NCBI RefSeq assembly: GCF_900231165.1
Contig: NZ_LT960614.1
Location: 2,168,550-2,232,549 of the forward strand
DNA from: Hartmannibacter diazotrophicus
GTDB lineage: Bacteria; Pseudomonadota; Alphaproteobacteria; Rhizobiales; Pleomorphomonadaceae
Reading direction: 5' to 3'
Length of the DNA stretch: 64,000 bases
The position numbers and the translations under genes were made by a program. Positions 7,338 through 53,974 of the stretch are shown here, in pieces; the first letter of the stretch is position 1; each line of letters starts with the position of its first letter. The notes beneath the pieces are model-generated. The model did no database searches. It was not told the DNA's origin and worked only from the letters and a program-made list of their open reading frames with translations.

Positions 7338-7446
7338 GTCATTTAGGGGTATGGGCTTGCGGCAATGTCCGCCTGCCGTCCGTCAGGGAGCCGGCACCCG
7401 GGCGATACAACGGCCCCGCACAGCGAAGGCGAGGCCGTCTCTTTCC

Positions 7447-38220: not shown

Positions 38221-38484
38221 GTCCAGCCTCTCCAGGCATCGGGCAAACCGGCGCGGGCGGACAGAACGATCGATCCGGCTTCAAAACATGCGCCTGGCCT
38301 CGGGCCATCTGCGCGAGAGTTTGACGCGTGTGCCGCAACCGGGCGAGTTAAGCGCGGTTAAAAGCGGTAAAGATGCGAGGGAGCAAGGAAGCCGGTCATT
38401 GTCGCGCAGGAGATTTTGGCGTCATGCTAAGATTGGCAACGGAGGCGGCTGCATTGGCTTCGTGGATGCGCTCAAGGGCAATGT

Positions 38485-41346
38485 ATGACGGATAGAACCC
38501 CGCCAGCCACGCGACTATTCCAGTTTGGGCGGTTCAGATTGTTTCCCGAGCGGCACATGCTGCTTCTGGACGATCGGCCAGTCCGGGTGGGTGGGCGTGC
38601 GCTCGACATCCTGACCGTGCTGATCGAGCGGGCAGGCGACATCGTCAGCAAGCGCGAACTTCTGGCGCGGGTCTGGCCCGATACCGTGGTCGAGGAAAGC
38701 AATCTCAAAGTGAACATGGTCGCGCTACGACGCGCTCTGGAGGCAGAGCCGGGTGCACCTCAGTGCATTGCGACCATTGTCGGCCGAGGCTATCGATTTA
38801 TCGCCCCGGTTCAGCTGGAGGCGACGCTGAAGCCGGAATTCAATCCGCTTCCGCTTCCGCTTGCGGCACGCAACCAGAACCTTCCGACCATGGCGAAGTC
38901 GCGGATTGTCGGGCGCGAGGAGGACATCTGCTCGATCGCCGCTGAACTGATGGACTGCAGGCTGCTGTCGATCGTTGGAGCGGGCGGCGTTGGCAAGACC
39001 ACGGTGGCGCTTGCCGTCGCGGAGCGACTGCTCGGGTCCTTTCGCGATGGCGTCTGGCTCGTGGACCTCTCCACCATAAAAGATCCGAAACTCGTGCCCA
39101 GCGCGATTACCACGGGGATTGGCCTGGCGGCGCATTCCGCAAACACACTCGCTGCTCTGATTGAGTTCCTGCGTACGCGCGAAATGCTGCTGGTCCTCGA
39201 CAATTGCGAACACGTGATCGAAGGCGTCGTCTGCGCCGTCGAGCGTCTGCTGACATCCGCCGCCGGTGTCAAAATCCTGGCAACGAGCCGGGAACTGCTG
39301 CGCGCACGGGGTGAAAGGGTCCGCAGATTGCGTGGTCTCGACGTGCCGGAGGCGAATGTTCACCTCGCTGCCGAAGACGCGCTCGCCTTCCCCGCAATCC
39401 AGCTCTTCGTGGAGCGTGCCACCGACAGGCTGGAGACTTTTGAACTCAAGGATTCCGATGTCGCCGATATCGCGGAAATCTGCCGCAGGCTCGACGGCAT
39501 AGCCTTGGCGATCGAGCTCGCTGCGACGCATGTGGAAGCATTCGCGATACGCGACCTGCTGAACCAGCTCGACGGACACTTCCGTCTGCTCGACGGAAAT
39601 CGCGGCGGTGTCGAGCGTCATCGCACGCTGACAGCGACGATCGACTGGAGCTATGCGCTGCTTTCGGAAACCGAAAGCGCGGTCATGCGCCGTCTCGCGA
39701 CCTTCGCAGGTGTATTCTCGCTCGAATCCGCCTGCGCCGTTGCCGCCGGCGGCGATCTCGATAGCTTGCATGTGGTGGAGAATCTTGCCGGACTGGTGGC
39801 AAAGTCGCTTGTCGCCGCGGAAGTGCATGGTGACGATCTGCTGTATCGCATGCTCGACACAACGCGCGCATATGCCCTGAAAAAGCTCGCAGCCAGCAAT
39901 GAGTTCGATGAGGCAAGACGGCGCCATGCCGAGCAATGCCTCGTGCTCCTTTCGCAGGCCGCTGCCGACTCGGAGCGTTTGTCGAGGAGTGAGTGGCTTC
40001 TTCGGCACGCGCCAAAGACGGATGACATGCGCAACGCCATGCGGTGGGCGTTCACCTCGACATCCGACCCGGCCCTTGGTGTCCGATTGACTGTTGCCGC
40101 GATTCCGTTCGGCAAGCAGGTCTCGCTTGTCGAAGAATGCCGCATAGCGGTGGAAAGGGCGCTTGACGATCGTTTCAGCGCATTTCGTTCGCTACGCGAC
40201 GATCTCGTTTTGAACCTGAGCCTCGGCGCGACGCTTCTGCACACGCGCGGTCCGATGGTGGAGGTCAAGACTGCTCTGACGACGGCACTTCGTCTTGCTG
40301 AGGAGATCGCGGACACCGAGTTGCAACTGTCGTGCCTGCGCGGTCTTTCGGAATATGAGCTATGGACGGGCGATTCTCATTCCGCGATTGCGATCGCCGG
40401 CAGAATTCGAGAACTCGAAGCCGACGCAAATGAATTGAATGCCGGCAGCGGCGATGCGCAGGAAGGATCGGCACTGTCCTGGATTGGCGCGCTTGCGGCA
40501 TCCAGGCTCCAGCTTGAGAAGATCGTCCGGCGTCCGCTTGGCCAGAGCCTTCGGCCGGACATTGCCCGTTACGAATTCGACCAGCGTCTCACCGCCGAGG
40601 GCGCCCTCGCGACAGTTCTCTGGCTGCAGGGCTTCCCGGATCAGGCAATCGCTGTTGCGAAACGGCAGCTTGCGGAAGCCGAAGCATCCAATTACGCGGT
40701 TTCCCTGTGCTACGCGCTGCTGCACGGCTCGGCAACGATCGCAATGTATGTGCGGGATTACACAGCGGCCCGGAACTTTATGGATCGCGGCATCGAACAT
40801 GCCACTCGCCATGGATTGACGATTTGGCAGGCGATGGTGACGGGCGGCAGCTCCCGACTGAGCCTGTATCTGGGCCAGACACTTGACCTGACACATCTTC
40901 GCGAAAATCTGGCCGAAGTACGGAGAGGCGGCTTCCGCCTTCGCTACCCCAATTATCTTACCAACTATGGCGAGGCACTCGCCCGGCAGGGTGATCTCGC
41001 AGGTGGGCTGGCCGCCATCGACGAGGCGTTGGCGATCTGCAGGGATACCGGTCAGGTTGTCGGTATACCGGAAATACTGAGGATCAAAGGCAATGTTATC
41101 CGGTTTCAGGATAAGGCAGGTTTCGACAAGGCTGAGAGCTGCTACCGCGAATCCATCCGCATTGCCCAGAAGGACCAGGCGCTTTCCTGGGAGCTCCGCT
41201 CAGCAATGAGCCTGGTGAAGCTCATGCGCCAAAAAGGTGGCGACAGGGAGCCTGAGAATGGACTGGTGTCGACCTATGGGCGCTTCACGGAGGGCTTTTC
41301 GACCGGCGACCTGCGCAATGCGCGCCGATTGATCGAAAGCCTTTGA
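38485..41346 (+). CDS. Large regulator: OmpR-type winged helix plus STAND-like ATPase and helical repeats
   Basis: The 953-residue protein begins with a winged-helix DNA-binding domain (RVGGRALDILTVLIERAGDI to TIVGRGYRFIAPV, residues about 10-110). An ATPase follows with Walker A IVGAGGVGKTT, Walker B-like MLLVLDNCEHV and RRLDGIALAIELAATHV, typical of the winged-helix/AP-ATPase regulators. The C-terminal half is helical, TPR-like. Such proteins sense a ligand through the repeats and use nucleotide switching to control transcription. It is divergent from the AraC gene (264 bp apart). Target genes are unknown; the MFS gene downstream is a candidate. Confidence 0.88.
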   Translation: MTDRTPPATRLFQFGRFRLFPERHMLLLDDRPVRVGGRALDILTVLIERAGDIVSKRELLARVWPDTVVEESNLKVNMVALRRALEAEPGAPQCIATIVGRGYRFIAPVQLEATLKPEFNPLPLPLAARNQNLPTMAKSRIVGREEDICSIAAELMDCRLLSIVGAGGVGKTTVALAVAERLLGSFRDGVWLVDLSTIKDPKLVPSAITTGIGLAAHSANTLAALIEFLRTREMLLVLDNCEHVIEGVVCAVERLLTSAAGVKILATSRELLRARGERVRRLRGLDVPEANVHLAAEDALAFPAIQLFVERATDRLETFELKDSDVADIAEICRRLDGIALAIELAATHVEAFAIRDLLNQLDGHFRLLDGNRGGVERHRTLTATIDWSYALLSETESAVMRRLATFAGVFSLESACAVAAGGDLDSLHVVENLAGLVAKSLVAAEVHGDDLLYRMLDTTRAYALKKLAASNEFDEARRRHAEQCLVLLSQAAADSERLSRSEWLLRHAPKTDDMRNAMRWAFTSTSDPALGVRLTVAAIPFGKQVSLVEECRIAVERALDDRFSAFRSLRDDLVLNLSLGATLLHTRGPMVEVKTALTTALRLAEEIADTELQLSCLRGLSEYELWTGDSHSAIAIAGRIRELEADANELNAGSGDAQEGSALSWIGALAASRLQLEKIVRRPLGQSLRPDIARYEFDQRLTAEGALATVLWLQGFPDQAIAVAKRQLAEAEASNYAVSLCYALLHGSATIAMYVRDYTAARNFMDRGIEHATRHGLTIWQAMVTGGSSRLSLYLGQTLDLTHLRENLAEVRRGGFRLRYPNYLTNYGEALARQGDLAGGLAAIDEALAICRDTGQVVGIPEILRIKGNVIRFQDKAGFDKAESCYRESIRIAQKDQALSWELRSAMSLVKLMRQKGGDREPENGLVSTYGRFTEGFSTGDLRNARRLIESL

Positions 41347-41459
41347 GGGGCAGGTATCGGCGCGTCCTCCGGTCCATCCGAACCTCGCTGGCCAGAGGCT
41401 TCGCCGCGAATTTCCGCCGAGACGCTGATGCGGTGCGGGCCGTCAGATGCTAGACCGCG

Positions 41460-42824
41460 ATGCAACCCTTGTCGGCGCTGGTGGCTCCCATGATCTTTCC
41501 CAAGAAGGCGGTGTCCGATCCGCCGCTGGCCTCACGGCAGAACGCCGCATGGTATGCGGTTGTGGTTCTGTGCCTGGCGCTTCTGCTTTCCTACACGGAC
41601 CGCCTCGTTATCAATCTGGTGGTCGATCCGATCCGCACAGAGCTGGCGCTGACCGATGTCGAAATCAGCTTTCTGCAAGGCGCCGGTTTCGCGCTCATCT
41701 TCGCGCTCGCCGGGCTGCCGTTCGGCCGTCTCGCCGATGCTGTCAATCGGCGGAACCTGATCTCGGGCGGCCTGCTGATATGGTCGCTTGCCACAATATG
41801 TTGCGGCCTTGCGGCCGACTTCGCCGGGTTCTTCGCGGCGCGCCTCGCTGTGGGTCTCGGGGAAGCGGCGCTGGTGCCGGCGGCATCGTCGCTGATTATC
41901 GATCTCTTCTCGCCGCATCGCCGCGGGACCGCGCTCGGCGTGTTTTCGCTCGGGGCCACATTCGGTGCGGGTGGGGCCATCCTGATTGGCGGCATATTGT
42001 TGGGCTGGATCGATGCGGGTTATTTCAAGTTCCTGCCTATCGTCGGAGAACTTGCGCCCTGGCGGCAACTGTTTATCGCGGTTGGACTGCCGGGGATCGT
42101 GATGCTGCCCTTGCTCTTGTTGATTTCAGAACCGAGGCGCTTCAACAGCTCTGGACTGATGCCTGTTTCCCAGGTTCTGCGCAGGCTTGTTGCCGACAAC
42201 GGCACCGTCCTGCGGGTCTGCCTCGTCAAAGGCGTGCTTGCTATCGGCGACAACGGCATCTTTGCGTGGATGCCGACGCTGTTGCAGCGCGTGTATGACC
42301 TGACCGCTCTTGAGGTCGGGGCGCTCGTTGCGCTCGCCGTTTCCGGAAGCGGCGCGACGGCGTCCGTTGTTGGAGGAGCGCTGTCTGACAGCGTTGCCCG
42401 CCGCTGGGGTGTCGAGGCGCGCATTGTTCTGCTGCTGGGCTGCTACGCTCTGACGGTTGCCGGCGCCGTTGTTCTCTACTTCGCGCAGAGCGGCTCGCAG
42501 GCGGCGCTTGCATTTGGCATCTGGGCATTCGGTTCGATCGGTGCCTATGTCATCGGCCATGTCGTCATGCAGGAGAAGGTGCCAAGCGAAATGCGTGCGA
42601 CCACCATCGCACTGTCGCTCGCCACCATCGGCCTGGTCGGGATTGGACTGGGCCCGACGCTGGTTCCCTTGGTGGCGGGTCGTGTACTGGAGGGCCCGGC
42701 GACGCTCCAGTCCGCCATGGCACTCGTCGGAATTGTGGCGTCGTTGTTGTCCTTCGTGATGATCTGGCCTCCTGTCCGCAAAAGTCTTCTGGCCTTGACG
42801 ACTGCACCGGAACAAGCAGGCTAG
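41460..42824 (+). CDS. MFS transporter, spinster/ACS-like
   Basis: The 454-residue carrier has 12 membrane helices with MFS motifs: LLLSYTDRLVINLVVDPIRT in helix 1, LPFGRLADAVNRRNLISGG after helix 2 and a matching SDSVARRWGVEAR loop in the second half. The family exports lipids, sugars or carboxylates. The start at 41460 has no strong ribosome site, and an ATG ten codons downstream (MIFPKKAV) is possible. It lies 113 bp after the large regulator on the same strand. Confidence 0.85.
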   Translation: MQPLSALVAPMIFPKKAVSDPPLASRQNAAWYAVVVLCLALLLSYTDRLVINLVVDPIRTELALTDVEISFLQGAGFALIFALAGLPFGRLADAVNRRNLISGGLLIWSLATICCGLAADFAGFFAARLAVGLGEAALVPAASSLIIDLFSPHRRGTALGVFSLGATFGAGGAILIGGILLGWIDAGYFKFLPIVGELAPWRQLFIAVGLPGIVMLPLLLLISEPRRFNSSGLMPVSQVLRRLVADNGTVLRVCLVKGVLAIGDNGIFAWMPTLLQRVYDLTALEVGALVALAVSGSGATASVVGGALSDSVARRWGVEARIVLLLGCYALTVAGAVVLYFAQSGSQAALAFGIWAFGSIGAYVIGHVVMQEKVPSEMRATTIALSLATIGLVGIGLGPTLVPLVAGRVLEGPATLQSAMALVGIVASLLSFVMIWPPVRKSLLALTTAPEQAG

Positions 42825-43320
42825 CGGGTCTCACACCGGCCGCCGATCAACAGCATAGCGCCAAACCCCGAGCACAGCCGCGTCAGCGGTCATCTCCAAT
42901 GAAACAGCAAGACGCGCAAAGAACATCGCCCGGCGGCAGTCGTATCTTCCGCTCATGTCCCGCCCACGAACGCATCCGCCGGCACCTTGTCCGGGTTCAG
43001 CGTCAATGAGACAATTACGGTCTAACGGATAGAGGAGGATTCTTGGCTCATCGTAACCCTTCAAGGCGCGAAGATGAGACGGAAATCCGGGACACAGAAG
43101 GAACCGGCGGAGAAGGCTGATCGAGGCCTGGAGTCAGGACGACATTGAGAGCCGTCCTCGCATGACCCTTGGTCATCTTACCCCGGCAGAATATGCTGTC
43201 GACACATCCAGTTGACCCGCCCCGATCGGGCCAAGCCAAGCCAGAAACGAACGCTGACTCCGGACCATTGCCTCCAGACACTTGTCGTTCGTGCTTTACG
43301 TGGCGGGCGCTTTCCCTGGC
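42825..43320. other. Intergenic region, 496 bp, between convergent genes
   Basis: No gene or clear terminator could be supported between the MFS gene and the GntR gene. The small open frames are low quality. This is the right border of the accessory stretch. Confidence 0.4.
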
Positions 43321-44058
43321 TCAGGCTTGAGACCTCAGGCGCGTGAAACTCATGGAGATGTGCGCGCGGCGCAGATGGGCGGCTGCCGCAAGGTCGCCGA
43401 TTTCGATCGCCGCGAGAATGTCGGCGACCTCCCGCGAGAAGACGAACACCTCGCGGGCGAGGAATTCATCCCGGTCAGCACCGATCTGAGCCAATGATTT
43501 CAACCAGATACGGGACGTCTGATAGTAAAGCCGCTCGGAAATTTCCTGAAGGGGTTCGTTGGCGGTCAGCCGCATCAGGACATGAAAGAATTCCATGTTG
43601 AGCCGGGCGAAGGTCTTGGCGTCGGGTCTGTCGAGCAGCGTTTGCGTGCGGATGTGAAGGGCGTGGAAAAGATCGATCGTCTCGCTCGTCGGCGGCACCG
43701 GCGAGAGCTTGCCGAGCATTTCGGCAAGCTCCATGCGAAGTTGGTAGACATGGGTGAGGGCCACCAGATCGACGTCGCTGACGATGGTTCCGACCCCGTG
43801 GACGGATGTCAGCAGGCCCTCCGACTCCAGCCGGCCGAGAACCCTTCGCAGCGGCGTGCGGCTGACGCCGAATTCCGCCGCCAGCACCTCTTCGCTGAGG
43901 CGTGTGCCGGGTGGGTAGTCCAGAAGGCAGATGCGCGTTCTCAAGATGCCGTAGAGATGCCTGAAGCGTTCGCGTGCATTGCCGGAAAGTCCCCCCTCCG
44001 GGCGCACTTGTGCCGCGATGGGCCCGTCGGACGGTATCTCATGCTCGGCGTCTGTCAT
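43321..44058 (-). CDS. GntR family regulator with FCD domain, probable regulator of ectoine catabolism
   Basis: The 245-residue regulator has an N-terminal winged helix (LSEEVLAAEFGVSRTPLRRVLGRLE cut to its key part, GVSRTPLRRVLGRL) and a C-terminal all-helical FCD ligand domain (FARLNMEFFHVLM, AHLRRAHISM). It is five bases downstream of doeB on the same strand, so it belongs to the doeAB operon and may be autoregulated. The ectoine regulator described in rhizobia and Ruegeria (EnuR) is a MocR-type fusion; this is not, as there is no aminotransferase-like domain. The TTGTACACAA-like sites upstream of doeA and ehuB suit this family. Confidence 0.9.
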   Translation of the reverse strand: MTDAEHEIPSDGPIAAQVRPEGGLSGNARERFRHLYGILRTRICLLDYPPGTRLSEEVLAAEFGVSRTPLRRVLGRLESEGLLTSVHGVGTIVSDVDLVALTHVYQLRMELAEMLGKLSPVPPTSETIDLFHALHIRTQTLLDRPDAKTFARLNMEFFHVLMRLTANEPLQEISERLYYQTSRIWLKSLAQIGADRDEFLAREVFVFSREVADILAAIEIGDLAAAAHLRRAHISMSFTRLRSQA

Positions 44059-44063
44059 GGTTG

Positions 44064-45230
44064 TCACGCTTCCAGCTTGGTTTTCAGGCCAGTAAGCACA
44101 TCCAGGCATCGTTGCAACTGGTCGATCGCGATGAATTCGTCCGGCTTGTGCGCCTGCTCGATGGATCCGGGGCCGCAGACGACGACCGACAGCCCATGCG
44201 ACTGAAAGAGGCCAGCTTCCGTGCCGAAGGAGACGACGTCGGCGCTGCGCTCGCCGGTGAGTTCGAAGACGATGTCGCGCGCCGCGTTGTCGTCGGCCGG
44301 CTCAAGCCCTTCCACCTCGCCGATCACCTCGGTCACGATCTCCGCCTCCGGGGCGGTGCGCCGCATGGCCGGCAGCAGCACGTGATCGCAAAATTGCCTG
44401 AGGCCTGACTTGACGTGCAGGGCATCGCTGCGGTTGACGGGGCGCATTTCCCATTCGACCTCGCAGTGACCGGCGATCGTGTTGCGCGCGTTGCCGCCGG
44501 AGATCCGCCCCACCTGCACGGTTGTCCAGGGCGGGTCGAAGCGGTTGCCCTTCGGGGCAAGACCCTTCAGTTCCTCGCCGATCTCCATCAGGTGGCACAT
44601 GTAGCGCGCGGCCGCTTCCACGGCGTTGGCGCCCTTGTCGGGTGCCGAGCCATGACCTTCGCGGCCGGTGAAGCGGGTCGTGTATTCGTAGCAGCCCTTG
44701 TGCCCCTCGATGACCTTCATCATCGTCGGCTCGCCGATGATGGCGAGCGAGGGTCTGAGATCGTTGGCTTCGAGCTCCGAAACGAGATGGCGGGCGCCGA
44801 AACAGCCGGTCTCCTCGTCATAGGTGAAGGCGAAGTGGAGCGGGCGGGAGAGTTGTGCCTCGGCGAAGACCGGCGCAACGGCAAGGGCAGCGGCAATGAA
44901 GCCCTTCATGTCGCAGGTGCCGCGGCCATAAAGCCTGCCGTCCTCCTCGCGCAGCGCGAAGGGGTCGCTGGTCCACGCCTGGCCCTCGACGGGCACGACG
45001 TCCGTATGGCCGGAGAGGATGATACCGCCGTCGCCTTCTGGGCCAAGGGTGGCGAAGAGGTTGGCCTTGTTGCCGTCCTCGCCGCGCATCAGCGAGATTC
45101 GCGCGCCGCAATTGCCAAGCTTTTCGGCCGCGTAGGTAATGAGCTCCAGATTGCTCTCCGAGGAGACGGTCGGAAAGGCAATCAGATCGGCAAGGATCGC
45201 CCGGGTATCGTCGAGAAGGTCGGAAGACAT
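44064..45230 (-). CDS. doeB: N-acetyl-L-2,4-diaminobutyrate deacetylase (ArgE/M20 family)
   Basis: The 388-residue metallohydrolase removes acetyl from N-acetyl-diaminobutyrate, the product of ectoine ring opening. M20 metal ligands are visible: ILSGHTDVVP, GRGTCDMKGFIAA, YDEETGCFGARH, and a C-terminal GPGSIEQAHKPDEFI. Sequence alone would say acetylornithine deacetylase; the location 17 bp after doeA and opposite the ehu/eut genes makes DoeB the better name. The ATG at 45230 gives MSSDLLDDTRAILADL. Confidence 0.9.
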   Translation of the reverse strand: MSSDLLDDTRAILADLIAFPTVSSESNLELITYAAEKLGNCGARISLMRGEDGNKANLFATLGPEGDGGIILSGHTDVVPVEGQAWTSDPFALREEDGRLYGRGTCDMKGFIAAALAVAPVFAEAQLSRPLHFAFTYDEETGCFGARHLVSELEANDLRPSLAIIGEPTMMKVIEGHKGCYEYTTRFTGREGHGSAPDKGANAVEAAARYMCHLMEIGEELKGLAPKGNRFDPPWTTVQVGRISGGNARNTIAGHCEVEWEMRPVNRSDALHVKSGLRQFCDHVLLPAMRRTAPEAEIVTEVIGEVEGLEPADDNAARDIVFELTGERSADVVSFGTEAGLFQSHGLSVVVCGPGSIEQAHKPDEFIAIDQLQRCLDVLTGLKTKLEA

Positions 45231-45247
45231 GGCGTCCCGCTGCAAGG

Positions 45248-46432
45248 TCAGTCCTTGACGAAAAGCTGGCGCGGCCGGTCGCAGAAACATTCCGCCGGAC
45301 CGCGCTCGCCGATGAGGATGCTCTCGGTGATTTCGAGGCCCCAGCCGTCCATCCACAGGCCCGGCATGAAATGGAAGGTCATGCCGGCCTCCAGCACCGT
45401 CTTGTCCTCCGTGCGCAGCGAGATCGTCCTCTCGCCCCAGTCCGGTGGATAGGACAGGCCGATCGGGTAGCCGCAGCGGGCGCCGCGCTCGATGCCGGCC
45501 CGCTCCAGCGGGGCGCCGAGGGCCTCGGCGATATCGCAGGCCCGGTTGCCGGCGACAGCCTTTTCAAGACCGGCCTCGAGACCCTCGACGAGCGCCTTTT
45601 CGGCTTCGAGAAGATATTGCGGCGGCTTGCCGAGAAAGACGGTGCGGCAGAAGGGTGTGTGATAACGGCGATAGCAGCCGGCGATCTCGAAGAAGGTCGC
45701 CTCGCCGGCCTGGAAAGGACGCCCGTCCCAGGTCAGGTGAGGGGCGGCGGCATCGGCCCCGCTCGGCGTCAGGGGCACGATCGCCGGATAGTCGCCCCAG
45801 TCATCGCCGATCCCGCGGACCGTGTCGGCATAGATCTCGGCGACGAGGTCGTTCTTGCGCAGGCCGGGCTGGATCCGCTCGACGATGCCGTCGACGACCT
45901 TCTCCGCAATCCGGGCCGCCTTGCGCATGAAGGCGATTTCCTCGCCCGATTTCACGCCACGCGCCCGGTTGACGAGCGCGGTTGCATCGAGGAAGGCGGC
46001 ATCGGGAAGTTCCTCCCGCAAGGTGAGGTAGGCCTTGGCCGAGAAATAGTAGTTCTCCAACTCGACGCCGATGCGCGCCTTTTCCCCGCCATGCTCCTTC
46101 AGCAGAACGGCCAGCGCCTGCATCGGGTGGCGCTCGGTCGACTGCACATAGTTGTCCGCATAGGGAACGATCCGGTCCTGCGTCATCCAGACGGTACGCA
46201 GCGCGCCGTTGGCGTCCTGGGTGCGGCCCCACCAGATCGGTGGGGCATCGGGCAGAACGATCACGCCCTGGTGCACATAGAAGGACCAGCCGTCGTAGCC
46301 GGTCAGCCAGGCCATGTTGGAAGGGTCCTCGACGAAGAGCATGTCGAGGCCGGCCTTGGCCATCGCCTCGCGCGTCTTCTTCAGTCGACGGTCGTACTCA
46401 GTCTGGGAAAACGGAAGCTGCAAAGCGCACAT
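45248..46432 (-). CDS. doeA: Ectoine hydrolase
   Basis: The 394-residue M24-family enzyme (also called EutD) opens the ectoine ring to N-acetyl-diaminobutyrate. It has the creatinase-like N-terminal domain (YDRRLKKTREAMAKAGLDML) and the pita-bread C-terminal domain (GYPIGLSYPPDWGERTISLR, MTFHFMPGLWMDGWG). Several of the usual M24 metal ligands are missing or changed, as is normal in ectoine hydrolases. The ATG at 46432 follows GGAGA; a longer open frame upstream crosses the operator region and was rejected. It is the first gene of the doeA-doeB-gntR operon. Confidence 0.92.
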   Translation of the reverse strand: MCALQLPFSQTEYDRRLKKTREAMAKAGLDMLFVEDPSNMAWLTGYDGWSFYVHQGVIVLPDAPPIWWGRTQDANGALRTVWMTQDRIVPYADNYVQSTERHPMQALAVLLKEHGGEKARIGVELENYYFSAKAYLTLREELPDAAFLDATALVNRARGVKSGEEIAFMRKAARIAEKVVDGIVERIQPGLRKNDLVAEIYADTVRGIGDDWGDYPAIVPLTPSGADAAAPHLTWDGRPFQAGEATFFEIAGCYRRYHTPFCRTVFLGKPPQYLLEAEKALVEGLEAGLEKAVAGNRACDIAEALGAPLERAGIERGARCGYPIGLSYPPDWGERTISLRTEDKTVLEAGMTFHFMPGLWMDGWGLEITESILIGERGPAECFCDRPRQLFVKD

Positions 46433-46475
46433 TTGGGTCTCCGCATGCTGCCTGTGTCGGCGGCAGTTGCCTTTA

Positions 46476-46485
46476 ATGTACACAA
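46476..46485. promoter_or_regulatory. Operator-like site, doeA side
   Basis: ATGTACACAA, a nine-of-ten match to the right-hand site, lies 44 bp before the doeA start. It fits the TNGT-N3-ACNA pattern bound by FCD-type GntR regulators. Its centre is 84 bp from that of the partner site, eight helical turns. Confidence 0.6.
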
Positions 46486-46532
46486 CACGATCAAAAATGG
46501 CAGATGTTTTTGGAAAATCCCGCGAAGAATTG

Positions 46533-46561
46533 TTGACATGCCGAGTGGGTTGGTCAAATTT
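46533..46561 (+). promoter_or_regulatory. Candidate sigma70-type promoter of the ehu operon
   Basis: TTGACA (46533-46538) is separated by 17 bp from AAATTT (46556-46561). The -35 is perfect and the -10 is AT-rich but imperfect. The right-hand operator overlaps the end of the -10 element, the ideal place for repression. Confidence 0.6.
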
Positions 46562-46569
46562 GTACACAA
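46560..46569. promoter_or_regulatory. Operator-like site, ehuB side
   Basis: TTGTACACAA forms TTGT/ACAA half-sites around AC, a form typical for FCD-type GntR repressors. It overlaps the -10 and start point of the ehu promoter and lies 37 bp before ehuB. The regulator encoded at 43321-44058 is the obvious candidate. Confidence 0.65.
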
Positions 46570-46605
46570 CAAGGTGAAAAGACCGCAACAAAGGGGAACT
46601 TCGTC

Positions 46606-47454
46606 ATGCGCTCCAGGATCTTGAAGGGAATTTTCGCGGGCTGCGTCGCGGCTCTGATGGCGGCGACCACATCGGCCAGTGCCGGCCCGCTGATGGACCG
46701 CATCAATGCGGGCGAGCCCATCCGCATCGGCTTTGCCAATGAAATCCCGTTCGCCTATCCCGCCGATGACGGAAGCCCCAAGGGCTTCGTCAACGTCTTC
46801 ACGATCGCCGTCCTGAAGAAGATGGGCTACGACAAGATCGAGCCGGTGCAGACGGAGTGGGGCGGGCTGATCCCGGGCCTCAAGGCCAACCGCTTCGACA
46901 TCATCACCGGCGGCATGAACATCCTGAAGTCGCGCTGCGAGAACGTGGCCTTCTCCGAGCCGATGGCGAAGGTCGGCGACGGCTTCGTCGTCGCGGCCGG
47001 CAATCCGAAGAAGATCACCGACTACAAGAGCATTGCCGACAGCGGTGCGATCATGGTCACCGGCGCCGGTTATTCGAACATCGAGGCGGCGAAAGCGGCC
47101 GGCGTGCCCGAAGCCAACATCATGCAGGTTCCCGGTCCGACCGAGATTCTGGCCGCCGTCAAGGCTGGCCGAGCCGATGCCGGTGCCGGCACTTACTTCA
47201 CGGTCAAGCAGCTGGCCGACACCACCGACGGTGCGCTTGAGGCGAGTGACCCCGATGCGATGCCCGAGGATTCCTTCAACTGGGCCGGCATCGGCTTCCG
47301 CAAGGATGACCAGGACTTCCTCGACAAGTTCAATGCCGCCGAGAAGGAGTATCTCGGGACGCCGGACATGCTGGCCGCGGTCGCCGAATACGGCTACGGC
47401 AAGGGCTCGCTTCCGGGCGACGTGACCACGGACTGGGTCTGCGCCAACCGTTGA
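46606..47454 (+). CDS. ehuB: Ectoine/hydroxyectoine ABC transporter substrate-binding protein
   Basis: The 282-residue periplasmic protein binds ectoine and 5-hydroxyectoine. After a signal peptide (GIFAGCVAALMAATTSASAG) come family-specific segments: GEPIRIGFANEIPFAYP, EWGGLIPGLKANRFDIITGG, SRCENVAFSEP, QVPGPTEILAAVKAGRADAG and the C-terminal GDVTTDWVCANR, all close to rhizobial EhuB. Length also matches. The ribosome site AAGGGGAAC precedes the ATG. It heads the plus-strand operon. Confidence 0.95.
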   Translation: MRSRILKGIFAGCVAALMAATTSASAGPLMDRINAGEPIRIGFANEIPFAYPADDGSPKGFVNVFTIAVLKKMGYDKIEPVQTEWGGLIPGLKANRFDIITGGMNILKSRCENVAFSEPMAKVGDGFVVAAGNPKKITDYKSIADSGAIMVTGAGYSNIEAAKAAGVPEANIMQVPGPTEILAAVKAGRADAGAGTYFTVKQLADTTDGALEASDPDAMPEDSFNWAGIGFRKDDQDFLDKFNAAEKEYLGTPDMLAAVAEYGYGKGSLPGDVTTDWVCANR

Positions 47455-47554
47455 CATGAGGCGCCGCGGACCCTCCAAAAGGGGCGCGGCTTCTTGAAGG
47501 CGCCCGGGCGCCCGCCCGCCGCCTTCGCCTGCTTGAACGGAAGGTCCGAGCGGC

Positions 47555-48223
47555 ATGTCCTATCTGGAATTTCTCGGCCAGTATGGTGACCGCATCCTCG
47601 GTGGTACGGCCATCACGATCCTCCTGACCGTGCTGGCGACTGTGCTTGCTGTCGCCATCGCGTTCCTCGCCGGAATGATGCGCCTGTCGGCCAACCCGGT
47701 CGCGCGCGGCGCGGCCACCGTCTATATCGAGATTTTCCGCGGCACGTCGCTGCTGGTCCAGCTCTACTGGATCTTCTTCGTTCTTCCGCTCTTCGGCATC
47801 ACGCTCGAGAAGTTCACCGCCGGCTTCGTCGCCGTCGGCATGAACCTTGGCGCCTATGGCGCGGAACTTGTCCGTGGCGCGATCCTATCGGTGCCGCGCG
47901 GGCAGTGGGAAGCGTCTCTTGCGCTCAACATGTCGCCGACGAAGCGGATGATCCGCATCATCCTGCCGCAGGCCGTGGTGACCATGCTGCCGCCCTGGGG
48001 CAATCTTCTCATCGAGTTGTTGAAAGGTACGGCGCTCGTCTCACTGATCGCGGTGGCCGACCTGATGTTCCAGGCCAAGCAGATCAACGGCACGACCTTC
48101 CTCTCCGCGCAGGCCTTCGGCACCGCGCTCATCATCTACTATGTCATTGCCCGCTTCCTGCTGACGCCTTTCATGCGTTGGCTGGAGCGTGTCATGGCCC
48201 GGCGGATGGGAAGGAGGGCCTGA
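47555..48223 (+). CDS. ehuC: Ectoine/hydroxyectoine ABC transporter permease EhuC
   Basis: The 222-residue inner-membrane permease belongs to the polar amino acid (HisM/GlnP) type. Helices such as AITILLTVLATVLAVAIAFL and the coupling segment GAILSVPRGQWEASLALNMS, followed by IILPQAVVTMLPPWGN, are visible. It follows ehuB by 100 bp, within which a G/C-rich stretch may separate messages, and is one base from ehuD. Confidence 0.92.
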   Translation: MSYLEFLGQYGDRILGGTAITILLTVLATVLAVAIAFLAGMMRLSANPVARGAATVYIEIFRGTSLLVQLYWIFFVLPLFGITLEKFTAGFVAVGMNLGAYGAELVRGAILSVPRGQWEASLALNMSPTKRMIRIILPQAVVTMLPPWGNLLIELLKGTALVSLIAVADLMFQAKQINGTTFLSAQAFGTALIIYYVIARFLLTPFMRWLERVMARRMGRRA

Positions 48224-48224
48224 G

Positions 48225-48896
48225 ATGTTCGACTGGCGCTGGGATTTCGTCTGGGAGATTCTGCCACGCCTTCTCTGGGCGACCGGCAACACCCTGCTTG
48301 CCGCCGGCATCGGCTATGGCATCGCCCTGGTCCTCGGCCTTGTGCTGGCGCTGGCACAGCGCACGCCGTTCAAGGTCGTGACGCTTGTCGTGCGTGAAGT
48401 GGTGGAATTCATCCGCTCCACGCCGCTGGTTCTGCAGATCTTCTTCGTCTTCTACGTCGGGCCGCAGTTCGGCATTCGCCTGTCGCCCTGGGTGGCGGGC
48501 ATGATCGCCATCGGCCTGCACTATGCCGCCTATCTTTCGGAGGTCTACCGGGGCGGGATCGACAGCGTCCCGCGCGGCCAGTGGGAGGCCTGCACGGCGT
48601 TGAGCCTCAGCCCGGCGCGCACCTATTTCCGCGTGATCATACCGCAGGCACTTCCGCCCGCGTTGTCCGGCATGGGCAACTATCTCGTCGGCATCTTCAA
48701 GGACACGCCGATGCTCTCCGTCATCGGCGTCGCGGAGCTGATGCATACGGCCAACGCCATCGGGTCCGAGAGCTACCGCTTCCTTGAACCCTATACGATG
48801 GTCGGCGTCATCTTCCTTGCGCTCTCCCTGCCGACCGCCGCCCTCATTCGCGCCTTCGAGGCCTTCGTGCGCCGTAAACTGGGGATGACCCGATGA
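48225..48896 (+). CDS. ehuD: Ectoine/hydroxyectoine ABC transporter permease EhuD
   Basis: The 223-residue second permease has the same fold as EhuC: LLWATGNTLLAAGIGYGIAL near the start and the coupling segment YRGGIDSVPRGQWEACTALS with IIPQALPPALSGMGNY. The ATG at 48225 follows AAGGAGGGCCTGAG, one of the best ribosome sites in the window; an upstream in-frame start inside ehuC was rejected. Its end overlaps ehuA by four bases. Confidence 0.92.
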   Translation: MFDWRWDFVWEILPRLLWATGNTLLAAGIGYGIALVLGLVLALAQRTPFKVVTLVVREVVEFIRSTPLVLQIFFVFYVGPQFGIRLSPWVAGMIAIGLHYAAYLSEVYRGGIDSVPRGQWEACTALSLSPARTYFRVIIPQALPPALSGMGNYLVGIFKDTPMLSVIGVAELMHTANAIGSESYRFLEPYTMVGVIFLALSLPTAALIRAFEAFVRRKLGMTR

Positions 48897-49711
48897 GCGA
48901 AGACATGTCCCGCTATCCCGTCCGGCTCACCGGCGACGACGTGCCGATGGTGCGCTTCATGAACGTCACCAAGAGCTACGGCGACCTCGTGGTGCTCGAT
49001 GCCCTCAACCTCGACGTTGCCGCCGGCGAGATGGTGACGGTCATCGGTCCGTCGGGCTCCGGCAAGACGACGGTCCTTCGGATGCTGATGACGCTCGAGA
49101 CGATCAACGGCGGCGTCATCTATGTCGACGGCGAGCCGCTGACCCATATGGAGCGCGGCGGTAAGCTGGTTCCTGCCAATGCGAAGCACATGCGCAAGAT
49201 GCGCGCGAACATCGGCATGTGCTTTCAGCACTTCAATCTCTTCCCGCACATGACGGCGCTGGAAAACTGCATGGAGGCGCCGGTGCATGTGCTCGGCCTT
49301 TCCAAGGACGAGGCGCGCGAGCGGTCGATCGAACTGCTCGGGCTGGTGGGGCTGGCCGACAAGGTCGACCAGCATCCCTCGCGCCTGTCGGGCGGGCAGC
49401 AGCAGCGCGTCGCCATCGCCCGCGCCCTTGCGATGCGGCCGAAGGTGCTGCTGTTCGACGAGGTGACGTCGGCGCTCGATCCGGAAGTGATCGGCGAGGT
49501 GACCAACGTCATCCGCACGCTCACCACAGAGCACAATCTCACCATGCTGATGGTCACCCACCAGATGGGCTTTGCCAAGGAAATCTCCGACCGCATCTGT
49601 TTCTTCTTCAAGGGGCGGATCGAGGAGCAGGGGCCTCCAGACGAACTGTTCGGCAATCCGCAGAAGGAGCGCACGCAGCAGTTCCTGAGTGCGGTCCGGG
49701 AGGCGATCTGA
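48893..49711 (+). CDS. ehuA: Ectoine/hydroxyectoine ABC transporter ATP-binding protein
   Basis: The 272-residue ATPase energises EhuBCD uptake. Walker A GPSGSGKTT, Q-loop MCFQHFNLFPHMTALEN, signature LSGGQQQRVAIARAL, Walker B VLLFDEVTSALDPE and H-loop LMVTHQMGFAKEI are all present. The ATGA overlap with ehuD shows translational coupling. In the rhizobial ehu operon ehuA comes first; here it follows the permeases. Confidence 0.95.
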   Translation: MSEDMSRYPVRLTGDDVPMVRFMNVTKSYGDLVVLDALNLDVAAGEMVTVIGPSGSGKTTVLRMLMTLETINGGVIYVDGEPLTHMERGGKLVPANAKHMRKMRANIGMCFQHFNLFPHMTALENCMEAPVHVLGLSKDEARERSIELLGLVGLADKVDQHPSRLSGGQQQRVAIARALAMRPKVLLFDEVTSALDPEVIGEVTNVIRTLTTEHNLTMLMVTHQMGFAKEISDRICFFFKGRIEEQGPPDELFGNPQKERTQQFLSAVREAI

Positions 49712-49784
49712 TGGAACGCCCGCCGGCTACTAGGTTGCCCTCGCCATGGTCCCGCGCTCGCAGAAGGGGATGATGGAGCATCCC

Positions 49785-50792
49785 ATGACGCTCTCGCTCG
49801 CCGATATCTTCGCCGCCCGGAACGCGATCTCCGGCATTGCCGTCCGCACGCCTCTCGTCCCGTCTCCGGCCATGACCGAGGTCGCGGGCGCACCCTTCCT
49901 GATGAAGCTGGAGACGACCCAGCCGGTGGGGGCCTTCAAGCTGCGTGGCGCGGTCAATGCCGTCAGCCGGTTGCCGGAGGGCACGAAAGGCGTTGCCTGC
50001 TGCTCGACCGGCAACCATGGCCGGGGCGTTGCCTATGCGGCGCACGCCAAGGGCATTCGGGCCGTCGTCTGCATGTCGCAATTGGTGCCGCAGGCCAAGG
50101 TCGACGGCATCCGCGCGCTCGGCGCTGACGTCAGGATTGTCGGCCGTTCGCAGGACGATGCCCACGCGGAAAGCATCCGGCTTTGCGAGAGCGAGGGGCT
50201 CATTGAGATTTCCCCCTTCGACGACCCGCATGTGGTCGCGGGGCAGGGCACTATCGGCCTTGAGATTCTCGAGGACTGCCCGGAGCTTGCAATGCTGCTC
50301 GTGCCGCTTTCCGGCGGCGGACTTGCCGGCGGTGTGGCGCTTGCGGCCAAGGCCATCAATCCGGCGATCCGGGTGATCGGCATCACCATGGACCGGGGCG
50401 CTGCGATGCATGCCTCCTTGAAGGCCGGCCATCCGGTCGAAGTGGAAGAAGTGGCCAGCCTTGCCGACAGCCTCGGCGGCGGGATCGGACTTCAAAACAG
50501 GCTGACATTCGATCTCTGCCGCCGCCACCTCGACGACGTGATCCTGGTGACGGAAGAGGAGATCTACCGGGGCATGCAGAGCATCTATTTCGACGAGCGC
50601 ATGGTGGCCGAGGGGGCGAGCGCCGTTGGCCATGCCGCATTGCTCGCCGGCAAGCTGCCCAAGGCTTCAGGGCCGATCGCCACCATTCTTACCGGCCGCA
50701 ATGTCGACATGGCGGCCTTCACGAAGGTGGTGACTGGCGAGGACGTGCCGCTCGGGGACGTCACCGTGAAAGGACAGCGCCATGCCGCATGA
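49785..50792 (+). CDS. eutB: Hydroxyectoine utilisation dehydratase EutB
   Basis: The 335-residue PLP enzyme resembles threonine dehydratase: PVGAFKLRGAVNAV carries the PLP lysine, CCSTGNHGRGVAYAAHAKG binds phosphate and VPLSGGGLAGGVALAAK is the glycine loop. In ectoine loci it takes part in turning hydroxyectoine into ectoine. The ATG at 49785 follows GGAG; in-frame ATGs at 49746 and 49770 are alternatives. It overlaps eutC by 11 bases. Confidence 0.9.
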   Translation: MTLSLADIFAARNAISGIAVRTPLVPSPAMTEVAGAPFLMKLETTQPVGAFKLRGAVNAVSRLPEGTKGVACCSTGNHGRGVAYAAHAKGIRAVVCMSQLVPQAKVDGIRALGADVRIVGRSQDDAHAESIRLCESEGLIEISPFDDPHVVAGQGTIGLEILEDCPELAMLLVPLSGGGLAGGVALAAKAINPAIRVIGITMDRGAAMHASLKAGHPVEVEEVASLADSLGGGIGLQNRLTFDLCRRHLDDVILVTEEEIYRGMQSIYFDERMVAEGASAVGHAALLAGKLPKASGPIATILTGRNVDMAAFTKVVTGEDVPLGDVTVKGQRHAA

Positions 50793-51774
50793 GATCGCCA
50801 TCGTCACCGAGCAGGACCTGCGCAAGGTCGTGAAACTCGATCTTGCGGTTGTCGATGTGGTCGAAAGCGCCTTTGCCGCCCTGGCCTCCGGCAAGGTGGT
50901 GATGCCGCCGGTCCTTTCCATGGCCATCCCTGAGGCGAATGGCGAGGTCGACGTCAAGACGGCCTGGCTGCCCGGGTTTTCGGGCTTCGCCATCAAGGTG
51001 AGCCCCGGCTTCTTCGACAATCCCAAGCTTGGCCTTCCGAGCCTCAACGGGCTGATGATCCTGTTTTCAGCGAAAACCGGCCTCGTCGAGGCGCTGTTTC
51101 TCGACAACGGATATCTGACGGATGTGCGCACGGCGGCAGCCGGCGCGGTCGCCGCCCGCCACTTGGCGCCATCGCGCGTTCAGACGGCTGGCGTGATGGG
51201 GACAGGCGTTCAGGCGCGGCTTCAGATCGAGGCGGCGCATCTCGTCCGCCCGTTCGAACAGGTTCTGGTCTGGGGCAGGGACCTTGCCAAGGCCGAGGCC
51301 TGCGCCGCCGACATCTCCGCACGGCTGAAAGTGCCGGCAAGGGCCGAGGCCGATCCCGCCCGGCTTGTTGCCGAAAGCCAGCTTGTCGTCACGACGACGC
51401 CGGCCCGCGAATCGATCCTCAAGGCCGACTGGTTGCATCCCGGCCTTCACATCACGGCCATGGGCTCCGATCAGGACGAGAAGAACGAAATCGAGCCGGC
51501 CGCGCTCGTCGCCGCGACGGCCTATGTCTGCGACCGCATCAGCCAGTGCGAAAAGCTCGGCGAACTGCACTCGGCAATTTCCGCAGGACTCTGGCAGGGG
51601 CCGCCGCCCGCCGAACTTGGCGACGTCGTCTTGGGCAAGTTCACGGCGCGCCGGTCCGAAGACGACATCACGATCTGCGACCTCACCGGGACGGGTGCGC
51701 AGGATACCGCGATCGCGACCTATGCGGAGAAGCTCTGTCGGTCGGTCGGGATCGGATCCCTGATCGCAGCTTGA
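50782..51774 (+). CDS. eutC: Ectoine utilisation protein EutC (ornithine cyclodeaminase family)
   Basis: The 330-residue NAD-binding protein belongs to the ornithine cyclodeaminase/mu-crystallin family: VDVKTAWLPGFSGFAIKVSP, YLTDVRTAAAGAVAARHLA, GVMGTGVQARLQIEA and ITAMGSDQDEKNE. Together with EutB it is thought to reduce the intermediate formed from hydroxyectoine. Overlap with eutB indicates coupled translation. No eutA gene precedes these two. Confidence 0.9.
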   Translation: MPHEIAIVTEQDLRKVVKLDLAVVDVVESAFAALASGKVVMPPVLSMAIPEANGEVDVKTAWLPGFSGFAIKVSPGFFDNPKLGLPSLNGLMILFSAKTGLVEALFLDNGYLTDVRTAAAGAVAARHLAPSRVQTAGVMGTGVQARLQIEAAHLVRPFEQVLVWGRDLAKAEACAADISARLKVPARAEADPARLVAESQLVVTTTPARESILKADWLHPGLHITAMGSDQDEKNEIEPAALVAATAYVCDRISQCEKLGELHSAISAGLWQGPPPAELGDVVLGKFTARRSEDDITICDLTGTGAQDTAIATYAEKLCRSVGIGSLIAA

Positions 51775-51796
51775 GAGTGGGCGGGAACCTGATCGG

Positions 51797-52303
51797 ATGC
51801 TGAAGCTCGATGCCCGCGACATCAAGATTCTCGCGGTTCTTGCCCGCGAAGGCCGCATTTCGAAGGCGGAACTGGCCGAGCGCGTCAACCTGACCGCGAC
51901 ACCCTGCTGGGAACGATTGCGCCGGCTGGAGGCGGCCGGCATCATCCAGGGCTACCACGCCGATATCGCCCTGAGCCGCCTCGGTCCCTCGGTCACGGTC
52001 TTCGTCATGGTGGAACTCGGCCGGCACAAGGCGGAGGACTTCCAGGTCTTCGAGCGGACGGTGGCCGATTTCGAGGAGATCGTCGCCTGCTGGGCGCTCG
52101 GCGGCGGCTTCGACTATCTCATGCAGGTGACGACGCGCGATATCGACCGCTACCAGCGTCTTATCGACGAGTTGCTGGCCCGGCGGATCAGCGTTGCCCG
52201 CTACTACAGCTATATCGTCACGAAGGGCGTGAAGACCGGCGGTGTGCCTCCCTTGGCGGCGCTGTTCGAAGACCTCTCCGAACTGCCGGTCAAATCCGGA
52301 TGA
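51797..52303 (+). CDS. doeX: Lrp/AsnC family regulator of ectoine degradation
   Basis: The 168-residue protein has an N-terminal helix-turn-helix (RISKAELAERVNLTATPCWERL) and a C-terminal RAM sensing domain (GGGFDYLMQVTTRDIDRYQRL, truncated here to its core). AsnC-type DoeX is a known component of the ectoine degradation locus in Halomonas, where it accompanies doeAB. It lies 22 bp after eutC on the same strand. It gives this locus two regulators, with the GntR one on the other arm. Confidence 0.87.
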   Translation: MLKLDARDIKILAVLAREGRISKAELAERVNLTATPCWERLRRLEAAGIIQGYHADIALSRLGPSVTVFVMVELGRHKAEDFQVFERTVADFEEIVACWALGGGFDYLMQVTTRDIDRYQRLIDELLARRISVARYYSYIVTKGVKTGGVPPLAALFEDLSELPVKSG

Positions 52304-52427
52304 TCCATCTGCCAGACGGCGATCTTTGGACAATTCCTCTGCCGGGGCCGAGGCAGGATGCACGGCATGGACATCGCGAGCGGCGCAATTGACGCCGCAT
52401 GACCACGCGCGGTCCGGGAGGATCATC

Positions 52428-53921
52428 ATGGCTCAGGCAGCACGACGCGAGCGGACCGGACCGGTCAGCTTTTCCGGCATTTCCGATGTCGGTCTCGTCA
52501 AGTCCTTTTCCTATATCGGCGGCCGTTGGCAGGCCGCAGGCAGTGGCGCGAGCTTTGCCGTCACCGATCCCTCGACCGGCGGCGAGCTTGGCCATGTCGC
52601 CCAGCTTTCCGCAGCCGAGAGCGCGACGGCTGTCGATGAGGCGGCCGCCGCTTTTCCGGCCTGGTCCGGGCTTTTGCCGCAGGAACGCTCGCGGCTGCTG
52701 CGCCGCTGGTTCGACCTCATGGTTGCGGCGCGCGAGGATCTCGCCCGCATCATGACGCAGGAGCAGGGCAAGCCGCTCTCCGAGGCGCGCGGCGAAATCG
52801 ACTATGCGGCGGCCTTCATCGAGTTCTACGCCGAAGAGGCCAAGCGCCCGAATATCGAGAGCGTCACCTCGCATCTGCCGGACGCCGAGATGGAGGTCTG
52901 GCGCGAGCCGGTTGGCGTCGCAGCGCTCGTCACGCCCTGGAATTTCCCGTCCGCGATGATCACCCGCAAGGCGGCGGCTGCGCTGGCCGCCGGCTGCACG
53001 GTCGTCGTCCATCCCTCCGGCGAAACGCCCTATTCGGCGCTGGCTCTGGCCGAACTTGCCGAACGGGCCGGCATTCCCGCCGGTGTCTTCAACGTCGTCA
53101 CCGGCAAGGCGCCCGAGATCGTCGAGCCATGGACCATGGATACGCGCGTGCGCGCCCTGTCCTTCACCGGCTCGACCGAAATCGGCAGGCTGCTCTATCG
53201 CCAGAGCGCCGACACGATGAAGCGTCTCGTCATGGAGCTTGGCGGCCACGCGCCCTTCATCGTCTTCGCCGATGCCGATCTTGATCAGGCCGTGGAAGAG
53301 GCCGTCAAGGCGAAGTTTGCGACCTCGGGGCAGGATTGTCTCGGCGCCAACCGCTTCTTCATCGAACGGCCGGTCTATGATGCCTTCTGCGAGAAATTGG
53401 CGGCGGCGACCAAGGCGCTCACCGTCGGGGCAGGTCTTGAGGATCGCGACATCGGGCCGCTGATGAACGAAAAGGCCGTGCAAAAGCAGGAGTCCCACGT
53501 CGCCGACGCGCTGGAAAAAGGCGCGCGGTTGCTGGTCGGCGGCAAACGCCATGATGCCGGGCCGTTGTTCTTCCAGCCGACGGTCCTCGCCAATGTGCCG
53601 GATGACGCGCTCATCATGCATGAGGAGACCTTCGGTCCCGTCGCCGCGATTGCCCCCTTCGACACGGAGGACGAGGCGCTGACCCGCGCCAACGCCACGG
53701 ACTATGGCCTCGTCGCCTATCTCCACACGCAGGATCCGCGCCGCATCTACCGCGCGAGCCGCACGCTGCAGTTCGGCATGGTCGCGGTCAATCGCACCAA
53801 GGTCACGGGCGCACCCATCCCCTTCGGCGGCTTCAAGCAGTCCGGCATCGGCCGCGAGGGCGCTCGCCTCGGCATGGAGGCCTTCATGGAAGTCAAATAC
53901 GTCTGCCGCGACTGGGCGTGA
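52428..53921 (+). CDS. doeC: Aldehyde dehydrogenase, probable aspartate-semialdehyde dehydrogenase of ectoine catabolism
   Basis: The 497-residue NAD(P)-dependent enzyme matches the succinate-semialdehyde dehydrogenase group: TPWNFPSAMITRKAAAAL, FTGSTEIGR, catalytic Glu in MELGGHAPFIVF and catalytic Cys in FATSGQDCLGANRF. In ectoine loci this gene product oxidises aspartate semialdehyde to aspartate (DoeC). The ATG at 52428 follows GGGAGGATCATC. The aminotransferase gene that makes its substrate follows 53 bases later. Confidence 0.87.
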   Translation: MAQAARRERTGPVSFSGISDVGLVKSFSYIGGRWQAAGSGASFAVTDPSTGGELGHVAQLSAAESATAVDEAAAAFPAWSGLLPQERSRLLRRWFDLMVAAREDLARIMTQEQGKPLSEARGEIDYAAAFIEFYAEEAKRPNIESVTSHLPDAEMEVWREPVGVAALVTPWNFPSAMITRKAAAALAAGCTVVVHPSGETPYSALALAELAERAGIPAGVFNVVTGKAPEIVEPWTMDTRVRALSFTGSTEIGRLLYRQSADTMKRLVMELGGHAPFIVFADADLDQAVEEAVKAKFATSGQDCLGANRFFIERPVYDAFCEKLAAATKALTVGAGLEDRDIGPLMNEKAVQKQESHVADALEKGARLLVGGKRHDAGPLFFQPTVLANVPDDALIMHEETFGPVAAIAPFDTEDEALTRANATDYGLVAYLHTQDPRRIYRASRTLQFGMVAVNRTKVTGAPIPFGGFKQSGIGREGARLGMEAFMEVKYVCRDWA

Positions 53922-53974
53922 ACGCCGCCCGAAGCCATCGATATCAACTCAAACCGCGCAATTGGAACAGACCC

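Follow-up and report, generated by a model that had tools for sequence, protein, structure and literature searches.

The window, a 64,000-nucleotide stretch of the Hartmannibacter diazotrophicus genome, carries an ectoine import and catabolism cluster made up of two divergent gene groups. The leftward group, on the minus strand, is led by doeA/eutD, which encodes ectoine hydrolase (45248..46432). It is followed on the same strand by doeB, encoding an ArgE/M20-type deacetylase (44064..45233), and by the gene for an FCD-type GntR regulator (43321..44058). The regulator gene is therefore the third on the doeA strand, downstream of doeA and doeB, and its product, with a predicted six-helix (VanR-like) C-terminal domain, is the proposed operator-binding protein. 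The rightward group, on the plus strand, begins with ehuB, encoding the ectoine-binding protein (46606..47454), and continues with ehuC, ehuD, ehuA, eutB, eutC, asnC/doeX and an aldehyde dehydrogenase gene (together 47555..53921); asnC/doeX, of the AsnC/Lrp type, occupies 51797–52303, and the aldehyde dehydrogenase gene closes the group at 52431–53921. EhuB scored 201 bits against TIGR02995, above the cut-off of 190.9, and DoeA scored 610.3 bits against TIGR02993, slightly under the cut-off of 613. The protein encoded near the cluster at 38485–41346 has 953 residues and combines a winged helix (Trans_reg_C) with an NB-ARC/AAA region; its match to TPR is weak.

The 173-bp intergenic region between doeA and ehuB contains two palindromes of the WTGTRYACAW class, which we refer to as operators 1 and 2. 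Operator 1, ATGTACACAA at 46476..46485, stands 43 bp upstream of the start of doeA (46432) and has counterparts in relatives; operator 2, TTGTACACAA at 46560..46569, lies 36 bp before the ehuB ATG (46606) and overlaps the ehu −10 region. The initial annotation had reported these two decamers at exactly these positions, the left one ahead of doeA and the pair eight helical turns apart, and we confirmed each of these points: the start-to-start spacing is 84 bp, or 8.0 turns at 10.5 bp per turn. The site is a 10-bp palindrome, W-TGT-RY-ACA-W, rather than a directional decamer, and eight turns is the value of this genome alone; the relatives differ but stay near whole turns.

Taken by itself, the window offers modest evidence for the sites, since WTGTACACAA with at most one mismatch gave three matches against 0.98 expected, and three were reached in 7 of 100 shuffles. 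In the whole genome, TTGTACACAA was found once, and ATGTACACAA appeared once among the one-mismatch matches. The full pattern WTGTRYACAW occurs at 10 sites (20 strand hits) in the 5.45-Mb genome, two of them in the doeA–ehuB region, and by simple arithmetic ten randomly placed sites are expected to give ∼0.004 pairs within 250 bp. The other eight sites lie elsewhere, and the pattern read backward gave one site; other FCD regulators of this genome may use the same palindrome. A candidate third site in the intergenic region, TTGTTGACAT (46530–46539), was rejected because it coincides with the −35 element TTGACA, matches a loose pattern, lacks the central RY and is out of phase with the operators (54 and 30 bp).

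The ehu promoter has on the plus strand a −35 element, TTGACA (46533..46538), which starts 27 bp ahead of operator 2, and a weak −10 region (46556..46562) assigned from the −35 register as AAATTT with a 17-bp spacer or AATTTG with an 18-bp spacer. A candidate doeA promoter on the minus strand, TTGACC-17-AACAAT (46529..46557), recognized by its match to the consensus, stands face to face with the ehu promoter and overlaps it. When the relatives were compared, TTGAC began 26 bp ahead of the operator in 14 of the 22 EhuB-side rows and 27 bp ahead in 2, making 16 in all; in one more row the distance was 29 bp, and five rows had no TTGAC, the background TTGAC rate being 0.00075 per position. This register, together with a 17-bp spacer, makes the −10 hexamer overlap the ehuB-side operator, and so the earlier assignment of the right-hand site to the ehu −10 holds for the relatives as well, the −10 of the window itself being weak. 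On the doeA side, no constant −35 was found among the relatives.

The regulator had been assigned to the FCD-type GntR proteins, and the matches to PF00392 (65 bits) and PF07729 (42.8 bits) exceed their cut-offs, identifying a GntR winged helix and an FCD domain. An AlphaFold2 model (21 sequences, pLDDT 87.3) showed the winged helix and six C-terminal helices after residue 97; on this model, the regulator belongs to the VanR group of FCD proteins, with a six- rather than seven-helix C-terminal domain. In a sequence search of solved structures, Atu1419 (6z74) came first with E 2.8e-8, a small margin over 7xp0/PmiR (3.8e-8) and 7u5q (6.5e-8). Foldseek ranked Atu1419 after 7u5q, and in VIA-align, McbR/YncC, 2hs5, AlkR, PmiR and 7u5q (Z 19.6–20.9; 19.9 for AlkR, a VanR protein) and two others fit better than Atu1419 (Z 16.7).

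The DNA-contact residues R31, E34, R45, T46 and R49 of Atu1419 align with R53, E56, R67, T68 and R71 of the regulator, R67 being the counterpart of the palindrome-reading Arg45; the palindrome class fits these contacts, but the sites had been picked by that pattern. The initial annotation had suggested that the FCD family favors such sites, and the 10-bp palindrome is of the FCD type: Atu1419 is reported to bind ATGTATACAT (PMC7797058), and its contact residues are conserved in the regulator. The zinc ligands of Atu1419, Asn137, His141, His192 and His214, align with N154, F158, V211 and H233, the last two with low confidence, and among the 21 sequences F158 is nearly invariant and H233 is the only invariant histidine. 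With His141 replaced by F158, and His192 by V211 in the low-confidence part of the alignment, zinc-dependent sensing by the regulator is unlikely.

With the FCD protein as query, 22 loci were found among the GTDB species contigs, of which 20 were full-length relatives. Further genome searches, whose lists overlap, found matches in 1 of 20 genomes of the regulator's own family (the window itself), 27 of 397 of the order, 7 of 385 of the class, 2 of 43 and 1 of 11 of two more orders, and 37 of 394 of the family of a Ruegeria locus; the 19 other sampled members of the regulator's own family had no match for the FCD gene. Because few genomes per searched group match, the gene is patchy in its distribution. 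A plasmid search for it returned six records, three of which were examined. Before counting, we dropped two partial weak matches (L029 and L030), the window itself (L031) and two loci at ∼40% identity from other clusters (L056 and L057), and three loci were removed as duplicates (L032, L041 and L116). Loci without exact sites were retained (L060, L063, L108, L112, L118, L127, L139, L009 and L033), and the final set comprised 86 non-redundant FCD loci. The contig JAHVJD010000004.1, titled Nocardioides marinus (L020), carries an FCD gene identical to that of a genome from the Ruegeria-family search (L116) and is probably misnamed or contaminated.

A doeA-like gene with more than 40% identity to that of the window was present in 68 of the 86 FCD loci, and in 60 the identity was at least 60%. 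The gene opposite doeA across the control region was ehuB, eutB, asnC or another; in a second arrangement the FCD gene follows ehuA, and in a third it lies opposite ehuB. As controls we used 40 of 72 same-order genomes that have doeA and no FCD match, chosen mainly among the highest doeA scores. FCD scoring covered, in most genomes, the six top-ranked candidates of a first look, and a distant FCD copy elsewhere in the control genomes is possible; the fetched stretches of the 40 control loci contained none.

The 400-bp stretch preceding doeA contained one or more WTGTRYACAW sites in 60 of the 68 FCD loci, and two or more exact ones in 40; none was found in the 40 loci without FCD, 13 of which have AsnC/DoeX. 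Over the 86 FCD loci (1,003 kb) we counted 133 WTGTRYACAW decamers versus 6 arm-swapped and 20 centre-swapped ones; the respective counts in the controls (627 kb) were 2, 0 and 6. The motif is thus present at FCD-linked doeA and ehuB and absent at doeA loci without FCD, indicating that it stays with the FCD gene, and the search in other genomes that the initial annotation had proposed as a check came out in its favor. Because the sites were chosen by pattern, their internal conservation is no independent evidence; outside the decamer, G before and C after were preferred (68%).

Absence of the motif in genomes carrying the regulator had been named as an observation that would speak against the operators. 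As a rule this was not seen, since an exact site occurs in 77 of the 86 FCD loci; it was seen for an unlinked doeA alone, in three genomes. In these (G209, G162 and G188) ehuB stands opposite the FCD gene, with a site pair 94 bp apart (L038–L040); the best doeA match is elsewhere, beside doeB and opposite asnC (L143, L144 and L145), and all three of these unlinked regions lack an exact motif. The FCD protein therefore does not have to control doeA in all genomes: its regulon may cover uptake only where doeA is unlinked, and asnC may control doeA where doeA has moved away. This result concerns other genomes and not the linked arrangement of the window, and so it leaves our weighing of the possible readings unchanged.

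The gene content of the loci differed in a further respect. An ArgE/M20-type deacetylase (at least 250 bits) was present in 54 of 86 FCD loci and 12 of 40 controls, and an AstE-type DoeB in 12 of 86 FCD loci and 21 of 40 controls; two enzyme families thus serve the deacetylase step, partly tracking the regulator. At 18 of the 40 control doeA loci, neither FCD nor EnuR was present within the examined stretch.

The distance between paired sites was found to be quantised, the set of spacings over the loci being 63, 73–74, 82–86, 93–97, 103–108 and 124–129 bp. An exact pair within 250 bp was present in 50 of the 86 non-redundant FCD loci, at 23 bp in one locus, 73–74 bp in five, 82–84 bp in nine, 93–95 bp in ten, 97 bp in two, 103–107 bp in 18 and 124–125 bp in five. 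With the 23-bp value set aside, the exact spacings gave R = 0.81 at 10.5 bp with a phase of −0.3 (n = 49), and 47 of the 49 were no more than 2 bp from a whole turn. Control distances, which are approximate because gene starts were extended from tblastn hits, were flat: R was 0.10 for operator to doeA start (n = 35), 0.15 for operator to the other start (n = 41) and 0.02 for intergenic length (n = 32).

Where an exact pair was lacking (36 loci), a spacing-blind matrix was used to choose the highest-scoring site not inside a mapped gene, together with the best partner 30–200 bp from it. Partners with a score of at least 7 were found in 26 of these loci and gave R = 0.82; of the ten loci without a partner at this threshold, four had no anchor, two had a weak partner only (79 and 85 bp) and four had none. 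In the combined set, 71 of 75 spacings fell within 2 bp of whole 10.5-bp turns, compared with 28.6 expected if they were evenly spread, and those more than 2 bp out of register were L010 and L130 (97 bp), L121 (129 bp) and L135 (108 bp). Spacings of 6, 7, 8, 9, 10 and 12 turns occur, and none of the 75 is at ∼115 bp (eleven turns). The two operators are thus placed where one tetramer could hold both, and the placement on one helix face first noted in a single genome is common to most of its relatives. The 23-bp spacing of L027 (Hoeflea) was considered as a refutation and rejected, since TTATATACAA at 7414, a palindrome with one mismatch, is 83 bp from one of its exact sites and 106 bp from the other; this palindrome was a post hoc find and was left out of the 75.

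Many loci inherit their spacing, and in a tree-based test we paired loci on branch-disjoint paths of the FCD tree whose spacings differ by at least 5 bp. With exact sites, nine tree-disjoint pairs gave a mean cosine of 0.57 (p 0.004–0.007), and with matrix partners included, 12 pairs gave 0.66 (p 0.0001–0.0004); L027 was included in both, and without it the exact-only mean cosine was 0.70. These p-values are approximate because the tree is only partly resolved, 37 of its 83 inner branches being open. When one locus was kept per 60% identity cluster, the 13 exact spacings again gave R = 0.81 (p = 6e-5).

We consider it likely that an FCD/VanR-type repressor acts in the manner of the tetrameric Atu1419, bridging both operators so that the divergent promoters lie within a single short loop. 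Both palindromes would be operators of the FCD-GntR protein encoded at 43321–44058, and without inducer this regulator, probably a dimer of dimers, would grip both simultaneously. The whole-turn separation puts both sites on one side of the helix, and the 84-bp segment with both divergent promoters would close into a short loop. Operator 2 would cover the ehu −10, operator 1 would stand between the candidate doeA promoter and doeA, and one complex would shut both import (ehu–eut) and hydrolysis (doeA–doeB). Because the regulator gene is the third on the doeA strand, the complex would also shut the regulator's own expression. By analogy with EnuR, a catabolic intermediate, perhaps N-alpha-acetyl-diaminobutyrate, would release the repressor. 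Since loop length and phase matter most below ∼150 bp in lac (PMC2682762), a regulator bridging 63–125 bp should leave the number of turns free and allow little freedom of phase.

The main rival to a loop is a pair of independent operators, on each of which an FCD dimer blocks its own promoter, the whole-turn spacing then coming from promoter phasing or ancestry. The ehuB-side operator is fixed in place on its own promoter, in keeping with such an arrangement, and 10 of the 86 loci have no partner at threshold. However, whole-turn phase was seen both in the loci with the TTGAC register (n = 26, R 0.86) and in those without it (n = 23, R 0.81), as well as for each common pair of flanking genes. 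Phase is therefore not a by-product of one promoter arrangement, and we rejected its origin from one fixed promoter geometry. Spacing is also larger where the intergenic region is longer (r = 0.54, n = 23), and the criterion described in PMC4494728 reads such a correlation as a sign of independent sites. As reported in PMC7797058, moreover, Atu1419 is able to bind a single palindrome, and dimers are the rule in the family, Atu1419 being presented as the first tetramer. Yet independent operators have no need of a shared face, and the spacings keep near whole turns not only across the loci as a whole but also where spacing changes between tree-disjoint loci. We therefore regard independent operators as unlikely.

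A different assignment would give the sites to the AsnC/Lrp-type DoeX (51797–52303) instead of the FCD protein. Lrp-type octamers can wrap phased DNA, and the asnC gene belongs to the cluster in the window. In Halomonas elongata, DoeX is described as binding a 46-nt stretch immediately upstream of doeA (PMC3187862). Against this, none of the 13 AsnC-bearing controls without FCD has the motif upstream of doeA, and the three unlinked doeA–asnC divergons lack it, yet the FCD–ehuB region of the same genomes has it. We rejected this assignment as very improbable. That the sites are operators of EnuR (MocR/GabR), the described regulator of other ectoine clusters, whose consensus ATTGT-N6-ACAAT shares the TTGT/ACAA half-sites (PMC8739950), is less probable still and was also rejected: the half-site spacing here is N2 versus N6, no exact ATTGT-N6-ACAAT occurs in window positions 38001–54000, the regulator has an FCD domain and not the aminotransferase-like PLP domain of EnuR, the nearest match in its own genome is 34% identical and ∼1.6 Mb distant, and EnuR was seen within the examined stretch of none of the 86 FCD loci versus 22 of 40 controls, many FCD stretches being shorter than the 16-kb controls so that an EnuR gene may lie farther off.

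The looped FCD repressor suggests a broader proposal, which we favor on balance and with less assurance than the loop itself. Ectoine consumption in Alphaproteobacteria would have a second, so far undescribed control system, an FCD/VanR-type tetrameric looping repressor with a sensor domain unrelated to that of EnuR and without an intact zinc site, which holds both divergent promoters shut within a single loop. Under selection, this loop would have stayed at whole turns (7, 8, 9, 10 and 12, with 6 in one locus) even as the sequence, the partner genes and the distance diverged. If true, the spacing pattern would amount to evidence of DNA looping in a GntR family obtained from sequence only. The analysis also points to a probable regulator of ectoine catabolism, with its operator and architecture, for bacteria that have no EnuR in their clusters. 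According to one survey, enuR is present in 456 of 539 ectoine consumers, leaving 83 without it (PMC5924519), a group to which FCD clusters may belong.

Among known systems, the closest comparison is with Atu1419, a VanR-group FCD GntR repressor of Agrobacterium fabrum with structures 6z74, 6za3 and 6za7, described as a tetramer in which each dimer can hold a palindrome and for which a loop was proposed (PMC7797058). Its 10-bp palindrome fits WTGTRYACAW, with the essential G3 forming part of the motif, and two such palindromes lie between two genes that Atu1419 represses, one of them on a −10; Atu1419 also represses its own gene (PMC7797058). In contrast to the regulator described here, Atu1419 serves the hydroxycinnamate pathway with methylene-tetrahydrofolate as the proposed effector, and its sites are 190 bp apart (PMC7797058). 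It also binds zinc, whereas the regulator of the window has F158 and, in a low-confidence alignment, V211 at the positions of His141 and His192. Looping by Atu1419 was proposed, in the account given in PMC7797058, from its own promoter regions and structure and not from cross-species spacing; the present analysis extends this proposal of looping in GntR regulators from a single protein to a pattern countable over many species.

EnuR/EutR/EhuR share with the FCD regulator the pathway, the targets, a GntR-type DNA-binding domain and predicted operators that overlap the promoter core (PMC8739950, PMC5320631, PMC5924519). They differ in having a PLP-aminotransferase domain in place of FCD and the operator ATTGT-N6-ACAAT, and in being unseen at the FCD loci. 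The regulators named with ectoine catabolism in the literature searched, of which few subscription papers were covered, were EnuR, DoeX and PucR, and among the matches listed there we found no FCD ectoine regulator. Nor did the listed matches include a study that compared the helical phase of FCD operators between species; whole-turn spacing has come up for the half-sites of CytR (PMC3454398) and, at two or three turns, for the direct repeats of MocR factors (PMC5320631). The family of the regulator and the looping device proposed for it are thus both known; it is the pathway use and the mode of demonstration that we did not find described.

Loop repression in lac and ara (the latter named in PMC8012715) likewise relies on two sites and a loop, with loop length mattering most below ∼150 bp and phasing observed (PMC2682762); unlike here, the proteins belong to other families and the loop was shown experimentally. 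In the FadR-subfamily divergons (Suvorova et al. 2015, PMC4494728), two GntR sites of the GT-N2-AC class also lie between divergent operons. The test applied there was the correlation of spacing with intergenic length, and the text of that study makes no mention of 'period', '10.5', 'phase' or 'ectoine'. That earlier correlation criterion would call length-correlated pairs such as those described here independent; quantised operator spacing provides a general test that indicates coupling even where spacing grows with intergenic length.
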